64,000 bases of DNA from Bacteroidales bacterium (GTDB taxonomy: Bacteria; Bacteroidota; Bacteroidia; Bacteroidales; UBA932), in the NCBI GenBank assembly GCA_017427385.1, contig JAFRSW010000002.1, positions 39,872-103,871 of the forward strand, read 5' to 3'. The notes beneath the pieces were generated by a model, which did no database searches, had not been told where the DNA came from, and saw nothing but the letters and a program-made list of their open reading frames with translations. Made by a program: the position numbers and the translations under genes. Shown in pieces: positions 16,085 through 34,376 of the stretch; position 1 is the stretch's first letter, and every line of letters starts with the position of its first letter.

Positions 16085-16176
16085 TTCCACTGCACGGGCA
16101 GGATTTGGCCCGTTTTCCTGCCCATAGAGCCTGTTTTCCACTGCACGGGCAGGATTTGGCCAGTTTTCCTGCCCAT
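16085..16176. repeat. Two tandem hairpin units, 51-bp period
   Basis: Two near-identical units begin TTCCACTGCACGGG at 16085 and 16136 and differ at very few positions. Each holds inverted arms GGGCAGGA and TCCTGCCC (16096-16123 and 16147-16174). They lie between the SDR gene and the convergent membrane-protein gene. Confidence 0.85.
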
Positions 16177-16205
16177 AGGGAATGTATAGGAAGATTCCGC
16201 AGATG

Positions 16206-16226
16206 TAGAGGAGCGAAGCGACGAAG
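16206..16226. repeat. 21-bp repeat, copy also at 17206-17226
   Basis: TAGAGGAGCGAAGCGACGAA plus a G occurs identically at 17206-17226, exactly 1000 bp away. The rest of the gap before the next gene (16227-16335) contains a GGCGC...GCGCC hairpin and nothing else I recognise. Confidence 0.8.
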
Positions 16227-16335
16227 GCGCCCCTGCAAGGGAGCGCCTAGTCAAGTGCGGACAAGTTGTCTTATATCGAACTTTTCTCGAAGATCTTGAA
16301 AAGGTGTATCTATCTGGCGTTTAGGCAGATACAAA

Positions 16336-16996: not shown

Positions 16997-17135
16997 ACCT
17001 GTAGAGGTTTTTGGCACTTTTCTCAACAGGTAGGCCGAAAAATGGCCGACCCGTCGAGGTTTTGCCGGGTTTTCTATACGGGTAGGGGGTGAAAAGGGGG
17101 TACCTGTAGAGAAAATGCGGTATTTCTCTACAGGT
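16997..17135. repeat. Three tandem hairpins, 52/53-bp period
   Basis: Palindromic units at 16997-17031, 17049-17083 and 17102-17135 each begin ACCTGTAGAG or ACCCGTCGAG and end in the complementary ACAGGT or ACGGGT. The two spacers (17032-17048, 17084-17101) match those of the array at 34238-34376 in reverse orientation. Confidence 0.9.
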
Positions 17136-17205
17136 CACGCCGAAACATCTGAGTAAAGGTTAATGAGCCGGCAGGCGAACCGCCGGTCCCGGTGGGAGTG
17201 CGGTA

Positions 17206-17374
17206 TAGAGGAGCGAAGCGACGAAGTCGGCAGCAGCCGACCGGCCGGGCCGGGTATTTGCGGCAGCAAATACGGAAAGGCGGAAAGGCCGCAGGGGTTC
17301 TGGGGGCAGAGCCCCCACAGAAGGACATTAGGGGCAGCGCCCCTAATAAGACAGAGGAAGCTTGCAAAGCAAGC
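17206..17374. repeat. Cluster of small perfect hairpins downstream of tRNA-Leu
   Basis: It opens with the 21-bp repeat shared with 16206-16226. Consecutive tight hairpins follow: GTCGGC-agca-GCCGAC (17226-17241), GTATTTGC-ggca-GCAAATAC (17254-17273), TGGGGGC-aga-GCCCCCA (17301-17317), TTAGGGGC-agc-GCCCCTAA (17328-17346) and GCTTGC-aaa-GCAAGC (17360-17374). None is followed by a U-run on the tRNA strand. Confidence 0.75.
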
Positions 17375-26391: not shown

Positions 26392-26460
26392 AATGCAAAT
26401 CTACAAAAATTCCAGCAAATTCTTCAGGTCCTGGCCTTGACTTGGGGCGAATATGACCTC

Positions 26461-26630
26461 TGGCGCACCAGGTAGGGCCAAGAACAGGGGGACCTGGGGC
26501 GGAGAAGGCCTCTGGCGCACCAGGTAGGGCTCGAAACAAGGGGACCTGGGGCGGAGAAGGCCTCTGGCGCACCAGGTAGGGCTCGAAACAAGGGGACCTG
26601 GGGCGCTGAGGGCCCTTTCCGCACCGGGTG
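26461..26630. repeat. Tandem hairpin array, exact 52-bp period
   Basis: Units beginning TGGCGCACCAGGTAGGG start at 26461, 26513 and 26565, and a decayed fourth (GCACCGGGT) falls at the next 52-bp step. Each has inverted arms CCAGGT and ACCTGG. Units 2 and 3 are nearly identical. It lies upstream of murI in intergenic DNA. Confidence 0.9.
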
Positions 26631-26647
26631 ATGGTTGGTGGGGGGCC

Positions 26648-26734
26648 ACCCGTAGAGGAAAAGGCGGAAAACCTCTATAGGTCGGTGGTTTTAGGGCTTA
26701 CCCGTCGAGGAAAACCCATGAAACCTCTACGGGT
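26648..26734. repeat. Two tandem hairpins, 52-bp period
   Basis: Palindromic units at 26648-26682 and 26700-26734 start ACCCGTAGAGG and ACCCGTCGAGG and end CCTCTATAGGT and CCTCTACGGGT, with a 17-bp spacer. Sequence and spacing relate them to the arrays at 16997-17135 and 34238-34376. Confidence 0.88.
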
Positions 26735-27017: not shown

Positions 27018-27054
27018 CAACCTGGTGCGAAACGCGGGGTTTCGCACCAGGTTG
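27018..27054. repeat. 16-bp perfect hairpin
   Basis: CAACCTGGTGCGAAAC pairs perfectly with GTTTCGCACCAGGTTG around a 5-nt loop. The arm shares GCACCAGGT with the array at 26461-26630. No T-run follows on either side, so it is not an ordinary terminator. Confidence 0.85.
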
Positions 27055-34237: not shown

Positions 34238-34376
34238 ACCTGTCGAGAAAAAACGCATTTTCTATACAGGTACCCCCTTTTTACCCCCTACCTGTCAAGA
34301 AAAATGGCCAAAAGCTCTACAGGTCAGCCATTTTTCGGCCTACCTGTAAAGAAAATGGCAAAAAAACTCTACAGGT
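34238..34376. repeat. Three tandem hairpins, exact 52-bp period
   Basis: Palindromic units at 34238-34271, 34290-34324 and 34342-34376 begin ACCTGTCGAG, ACCTGTCAAG and ACCTGTAAAG and all end ACAGGT. Read in reverse, units and spacers correspond one to one with the array at 16997-17135. Confidence 0.92.

Follow-up and report, generated by a model that had tools for sequence, protein, structure and literature searches.

Why should hairpins of differing sequence recur at a nearly constant step of about 52 bp between the genes of a Bacteroidales genome? The question is raised by a stretch of 64,000 nucleotides (the window, meaning the whole stretch analysed) from a 1.93-Mb MAG of 22 contigs that is 78% complete (G000). 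The initial annotation had reported such hairpins in five places, and the palindrome centres computed here give steps of 51–53 bp in all of them: 16109 and 16160 (step 51); 17013, 17065 and 17118 (52, 53); 26456, 26508, 26560, 26612, 26664 and 26716 (five steps of 52); and 34254, 34306 and 34358 (52, 52). The steps reported at 26461 and 26648 hold, but the two places are not separate, as together they form a single six-palindrome array in which the arm family switches midway, with the 52-bp register unbroken (26612 to 26664) as ACCTGGGGCG/CGCACCAGGT arms give way to those of the ACCCGTAGAG family. The register is also kept across an arm-family junction at another locus (L144, 3243 to 3296). 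The features of the window are as follows.

16094..16125, no strand: hairpin unit 1 of the GGGCAGGA array, arms ACGGGCAGGA / TCCTGCCCAT, loop 12
16145..16176, no strand: hairpin unit 2 of the GGGCAGGA array, step 51
16997..17135, no strand: ACC(T/C)GTAGAG array of three units (16997–17031, 17049–17083, 17102–17135; steps 52, 53)
26440..26629, no strand: ACCTGGGGCG / CGCACCAGGT family, four units at 52 bp, the first and last imperfect
26648..26734, no strand: ACCCGTAGAG family, two units in the 52-bp register of the preceding array
27020..27052, no strand: single hairpin ACCTGGTGCG-13-CGCACCAGGT
34238..34376, no strand: ACCTGT(C/A)(G/A)AG array of three units (34238–34271, 34290–34324, 34342–34376; steps 52, 52)

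Each unit in the window consists of a 10-bp arm, a loop of 12–15 bp, a second 10-bp arm and a spacer of 17–19 bp, so that arm orientation alternates every ~26 bp. Spacers in the ACC(T/C)GT family measure 17 bp (26 cases) or 18 bp (5 cases) after a 35-bp hairpin and 18 bp after a 34-bp hairpin (8 of 8). After two of the arrays, at 16200–16245 and 17190–17290, the window holds a second shared sequence (TAGAGGAGCGAAGCGACGAAG...), and short matches near sequence of this type recur on many contigs of the genomes G109 and G192. The search for a known RNA family returned only four tRNAs as Rfam hits at gathering score, and CRISPR and attC were put aside on layout alone.

Across G000, at least eight arm families have this common layout (that is, ACC(T/C)GTAGAG, ACCTGG(G/T)GCG, GGGCAGGA at 51 bp, ACCTTCCCC, GTTGGGAGCG, TTCATCCACA/GCAGGCACA, TCGTGGTCA and TGTTCCCGGT), which bears out the earlier remark that sequences differ between families while the step stays near constant. 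The suggestion that spacing rather than sequence is kept also agrees with a step that is constant over many arm families and across family junctions. A palindrome scan (arm 10, at most one mismatch, loop 10–18) of the window and 20 further stretches of G000 (414 kb in total, five of the added stretches, L008, L009 and L022–L024, having been selected for containing hits) found 206 palindromes, and a single order-2 Markov control contained 76. Pairs fell at steps of 26 (20 pairs), 52 (18) and 78 (7); the control gave just one pair, at step 6. In a second sample of 400 kb, taken by coordinate alone, there were two pairs at 25, one at 51 and none at 52, and three arrays, including one at L097 18738. 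The genome-wide peak expected near 52 bp is therefore seen in the first sample (with others at 26 and 78) but not in the second, and the two samples, together with that of the relatives (see below), indicate that the arrays are real, yet sparse and unevenly distributed. Over the whole MAG, hairpins numbered 13 forward and 13 reverse for ACCTTCCC and 9 and 4 for GGGCAGGA (reversed control, 0), and each family has tens of copies (36 ACC(T/C)G-type units in ~0.8 Mb, and 13 and 9 units in the 78% complete MAG). Relative to naive ORF calls, 28 array clusters were convergent (9), codirectional (10), divergent (3), within an ORF of at least 150 aa (3) or at a contig edge (3).

Three further features of these arrays were observed. 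In one mixed array (L007 3936–4130, contig C2), the 5′ arms of the TTCATCCACA family face the 3′ arms of the TGTGCCTGGA family, as if units recombined between families with the 52-bp step kept. In another (L009 10575 to 10648, contig C4), ACCTGTAGAG and ACCTTCCCC arrays lie in tandem, with the facing palindromes 73 bp, or about seven turns, apart. Finally, the contig ends G000:C15:23600–23762 (end of L322) and G000:C1:1–170 (start of L006) share one GGGCAGGA array sequence, so that these two contigs may be adjacent, with a break of the assembly inside the array.

Of 121 genomes of the genus searched with PF01797, 89 contain divergent Y1 genes, and arrays adjoin those genes that have an SNHVHF or DNHxH motif. 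G000 encodes four full-length RAYT-like HUH genes of this clade (288–304 aa). In a 12-row alignment of the clade, N55, H56 and H58 as well as Y113 and N117 (YxxxN) are invariant, and a regular-expression check found the HUH motif in 40 and the Tyr motif in 41 of 42 clade RAYTs, the misses coming from a protein cut by a contig end (L332) and an ORF call that is apparently wrong (L301). The best NCBIfam model, top in 4 of 4 tested, is the REP-associated tyrosine transposase NF047646, at 27.6–41.7 bits (cut-off 80). Against Pfam Y1_Tnp (cut-off 23), three of the G000 proteins score 13.7–20.4 bits and the C15 protein has no match, and in a wider set six of seven score 12.8–20.5 bits and one has no match; these proteins lie below the curated family cut-offs, and other clade members (for example, L078 and L281) pass that of Pfam. 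With the 12-sequence alignment, clade RAYTs were found in 23 of 25 array-bearing genomes, whereas G151 and G205 (90% and 89% complete MAGs) lacked a hit to the clade at E 1e-8 despite their arrays. Across the order, with at most five candidates scored per genome, 3 of 393 genomes held the clade at E 1e-25, and these three are the only genomes of the host genus drawn, among the matches listed. The two best-scoring Y1 genes of G000 are of a non-clade class with single hairpins; two Y1 genes from outside the clade, on C4 (L074 2430–3610) and C18 (L075 5975–7140), have a single hairpin of like type on each side (GCCTCTACAGAGC.. and AAACCGTCTGGTG..), with a likeness to IS200-type or TIR-type elements.

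Each of the four full-length clade RAYTs in G000 adjoins one family at 51–52 bp, two of these being families of the window (GGGCAGGA and ACCTGTAGAG). The RAYTs on C15, C20 and C2 have their own family on both sides and that on C3 on one side; the C3 gene adjoins ACCTGTAGAG arrays and the C2 gene lies between GTTGGGAGCG arrays. Before the flanks of the C20 and C15 genes were inspected, we predicted that they would hold array families already seen elsewhere in G000, and this was borne out for C20 (ACCTTCCCC arrays on both sides, also found at C4:38631 and C20:61383) and for C15 (GGGCAGGA arrays on both sides of the RAYT at G000:C15:22632–23459, also found in the window and at C3:16861). Arms of three of the four RAYT-linked families occur elsewhere in G000; with a strict expression, the GTTGGGAGCG family was not found away from its RAYT in 0.85 Mb. 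For the ACCTGGGGCG family, a RAYT lies between two such arrays in G192 and none was found in the G000 assembly, and for four of the eight arm families no RAYT was found in G000, a genome that is 78% complete. As the window thus holds three arm families, each adjoining a RAYT elsewhere, a single copied sequence, which would have accounted for all five places, is excluded as their origin.

We quantified this adjacency with a flank test (500-bp flank, at least 62% identity, lag of 50–54 or its double), in which the best repeat lag was 50–54 or its double in a flank of 41 of 54 clade RAYT loci, and on both flanks of 20. Of the 54, ten were chosen with the adjacency already known (10 positive), and another 12 were those from which the pattern was first recognized and the cut-offs were fixed (9 positive). 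The remaining 32 gave 22 positives, compared with 0 of 29 other Y1-transposase (Y1_Tnp) loci, six of which had some different repeat lag, and with 1 of 150 ORFs drawn at random. A later set of 60 RAYT loci was positive less often, with a lag at 66% identity or above in 32, of which 19 were at 50–54. Six RAYTs in two further species gave 52 on both flanks in one, a lag of 102 in one and lags of 72–84 in four. When a palindrome was required, arrays were found at 68 of 120 clade loci (48 with a period of 50–53), and control windows yielded 43 arrays in 2764, eight of them at 50–53. Among the matches listed, 11 of the 25 array-bearing genomes (G000, G016, G069, G078, G094, G098, G109, G162, G165, G185 and G192) have an array of the searched class no more than 300 bp from a clade RAYT, and the other 14 have none so placed. 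Long sequence is common to arrays only where their RAYTs are >70% identical, and coevolution of RAYT and arm is weak (Mantel test on the longest common substring, r = 0.09 below 70% RAYT identity, 31 of 2000 permutations).

On the basis of this adjacency, we consider it very likely that the arrays are REP-like, BIME-like palindromes of a divergent RAYT (TnpA_REP) clade of HUH proteins, found so far only in the host genus. The initial annotation had proposed a free-standing binding platform for a nucleoid or regulatory protein, or plain repeats amplified by slipped replication; neither is supported as the primary identity of the arrays, because neither predicts a tie to RAYTs in which each gene has its own arm family.

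The array at 26.5 kb adjoins murI. Most of the named relatives recovered through that gene are Bacteroidales MAGs from rumen and gut, and two bear the name Candidatus Cryptobacteroides, so that the host genus is probably Cryptobacteroides. In 71 loci of Bacteroidales relatives (1.1 Mb), there were 10 pairs at 26, 5 at 52 and 3 at 78 (control, one each at 26, 51 and 77), and without the eight closest loci only step 26 (four pairs) still reached three or more. No 52 peak appeared in samples of five relatives (80 kb each for four, 64 kb for one) or in 273 kb drawn from the order's other families; one of these five relatives, G016, does carry arrays. The exact ACCTGTAGAG pattern occurred in 0 of 60 relatives, and the idea of a species oddity was dropped once a degenerate ACCTG pattern matched other genomes of the genus: half-hairpins of this type in two neighbouring units gave at least one match in 62 of 200 genus genomes, and 12 of 200 had at least four forward and three reverse matches. 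The reversed-pattern control was equally high in 6 of 200 (G064, G078, G080, G094, G162 and G165) and is not a clean null, because its matches in the high-control genomes examined (G162 excluded) come from another arm class, GTCCA/TGGAC, whose steps are ~50–52 bp. Arms are common to the close relatives G000, G109 and G195, and in part to G115 and G098, and other species have different inner arm bases in an identical layout. The array at 16997 is conserved in G109 (67 bp from 17046 are identical), with adjoining sequence that is unalignable until a tRNA-Leu gene on one side, and beside murI, G109 retains the ACCTGTAGAG pair with fewer ACCTGGGGCG units than in G000; unit number therefore varies and arrays can outlast their surroundings. 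Comparison with G109 gave no clean empty site and hence no insertion boundary, as the 34238 locus is non-homologous outside the gene and the other two loci hold arrays. The literature matches listed contain no report of such arrays in the host genus.

Among 71 ACC(T/C)GT units from four genomes, in which positions 1–3, 5 and 6 are invariant by construction of the search expression, position 4 covaries between the arms (53 equal versus 38.6 expected, a count attained by 0.05% of permutations). At position 7, 42 units have a change in a single arm and 0 have one in both. These counts are indications, because the units are related by descent and not independent. The A/T runs at the loop edges are alike (A..A or T..T) in 47 of these units, complementary (A..T or T..A) in 20 and otherwise in 4. 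These features are in keeping with an imperfect hairpin whose loop is open and whose mid-stem mismatch is retained. A GTAG/GGAG foot is absent from most of the arm families, the ACCTTCCCC, GGGCAGGA, ACCTGGGGCG and GTCCAC arms being without GTAG. In the ACC(T/C)GT family, 60 of 67 distinct units have GTAG in one arm or both, compared with a pooled null of 53.7 and a maximum of 61 in 5000.

In 43 RAYT-flanking arrays, A/T power averaged 0.163 at the fifth harmonic of the unit, which corresponds to 10.4 bp, compared with 0.072 at the second-strongest harmonic and a maximum of 0.085 in 500 shuffles, and the fifth harmonic was the top one in 15 of the 43. Given a step kept through sequence change and A/T tracts phased at 10.4 bp, it is sensible to read 52 bp as five helical turns, which, as had been proposed, would put all palindromes on one face of B-DNA. 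By approximate number of turns, 48 of 68 arrays have periods of 50–53 (five), and others lie at 62 and 63 (six), 72, 73 (three arrays) and 74 (seven), and 83, 84 (two arrays) and 85 (eight). Among the 19 periods of at least 40 bp outside 49–55, the Rayleigh R was 0.63 (p ~0.0005) and 11 fell within 1.6 bp of a whole turn, four being doubles of 51–53, and 48, 60 (twice) and 92 not fitting; ordinary palindromic repeats in control windows, which are not a clean null, gave R = 0.36, with 15 of 29 near whole turns and 23 of 29 multiples of three. We tentatively raise the idea, without holding it to be probable, that RAYT-borne arrays in the host genus are quantised in whole helical turns regardless of sequence. 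Under this reading, a transposase system known from single-stranded DNA would also be read, or built, on the double helix, which is suggestive only. Eight individual loci (L310, L341, L346, L347, L353, L363, L377 and L381) have clade RAYT arrays with periods of 62–63, 73–74 and 84 bp, about six, seven and eight helical turns.

The same phasing could be explained by a host nucleoid or regulatory protein that binds the arrays as phased double-stranded sites and sets the spacing, RAYT proximity being secondary. The 10.4-bp A/T phasing, the loop-edge runs that may be A or T on either side, the register maintained across family junctions and the location of most arrays between ORFs are all consistent with such a protein. 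It would not, however, account for each RAYT in G000 having its own adjoining arm sequence, nor would a single host protein predict arms that turn over with a step that does not, and the position-4 covariation and one-arm mismatch point instead to a folded hairpin. We therefore regard this explanation as rather unlikely, although a double-stranded DNA-binding role in addition to the RAYT link is possible.

Neutral slippage, in which a palindromic unit was tandemly duplicated and 52 bp is simply the length of the founder, is a much poorer candidate and in our view very improbable. Near-identical copies do exist at 26439–26605 (92% match), in L006 and at L091, and G000 and G109 carry different numbers of units beside murI, as slippage would produce. 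Yet the step is common to families of different species, the loops have diverged and the arms have not, and the contrast between RAYT loci (22 of 32) and other transposase loci (0 of 29) sets RAYT loci apart, so that slippage, already disfavoured, would need a family-independent cause for both the 50–53 bp and the RAYT adjacency. Least likely of all is that the arrays are transcribed 3′-end hairpins (that is, bidirectional terminators or mRNA stabilizers), for, although 9 of the 28 clusters are convergent and 10 codirectional, and such positions are known for REPs in the available text of PMC3733652, the constant step, phasing and RAYT link would be left unexplained and the position-7 mismatches in the arms are uncompensated (a terminator scan of three window regions found 0 sites, its loops of 3–8 placing hairpins with 12–15-bp loops outside its range).

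Returning to the arrays as repeats of a RAYT clade, they share the core of REP/BIME–RAYT systems: short repeated palindromes that are mostly extragenic, regular units in alternating orientation (steps 26/52/78), a cognate RAYT flanked by its own repeats (a REPtron), one family per RAYT in G000, and HUH and Tyr motifs. As in the REP/BIME and TnpA_REP (RAYT) REPtrons of E. coli and Pseudomonas, to the extent that these are described in the available parts of PMC6006769, PMC8266576 and PMC2817692, intergenic imperfect palindromes alternate in orientation, repeats are both dispersed and beside the RAYT, there is one arm family per RAYT and several RAYTs per genome, and an HUH and Tyr protein is accompanied by a retained mid-stem mismatch. 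In E. coli, by the partial account in PMC8266576, REPs have a conserved mismatch bulge that is needed for cleavage by their TnpA_REP. Relative to the same descriptions, the repeats here differ in having loops of 12–15 bp, no common GTAG foot and copies in the tens and not the hundreds (the high copy number of REPs is usually >100 per genome, according to the portion of PMC2817692 available); the arrays differ in their step of about five turns and phased A/T tracts, and the proteins in being mostly 280–315 aa, with a long C-terminal part, and found here only in the host genus. We set the system apart from the canonical REP family because of the GTAG foot, the copy number and the curated cut-offs, in all of which it departs from that family.

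Two other groups described in PMC6006769, as far as its available text goes, are closer in some respects. TnpAY1 subclass 2.6 (RAYT group 5) resembles the present system in occurring in Bacteroidetes with GTAG-less flanking secondary structures that have copies elsewhere in the genome; that group has atypical flanking structures, a length of 179 aa and the Y motif YIH[QN]NP, whereas the proteins here are mostly 280–315 aa with Y(V/I)xxN, a comparison made by description. Subclass 2.1 (RAYT group 1; 238 aa) shares the NHVH motif and a C-terminal domain, but is reported in that text without associated REP sequences, whereas arrays are present here. Within the same genomes, IS200/IS605-type Y1 genes also have a Y1_Tnp domain, and some of them have one hairpin on each side (for example, on C4 and C18 of G000), but none of the 29 such loci has arrays at 50–54 bp.

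Given the conserved HUH and Tyr motifs and the mid-stem mismatch that is kept, both read from sequence, we suggest that each RAYT would recognize its own hairpin as folded single-stranded DNA. Most likely, the protein would nick and rejoin this hairpin in single strands, an activity predicted from its motifs, so that arrays spread or extend, and the spread arrays would settle mostly between genes. With less assurance, the five-turn step and in-phase A/T tracts may reflect a constraint on the double-stranded form, the candidate sources being multimers of the RAYT bound to the duplex, a distinct protein that bends DNA, or unit addition that counts turns.

In summary, we have identified a palindromic array family in uncultured gut and rumen bacteria that is linked to transposase-like genes missed or barely reached by standard models. 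A spacing of about five turns despite differing sequences is unusual for a system thought to act on single-stranded DNA, and this spacing rule persists while the sequences turn over. Dozens of arm families with nearly one step offer a natural series for asking if RAYTs respond to helical phase in addition to folded single strands.
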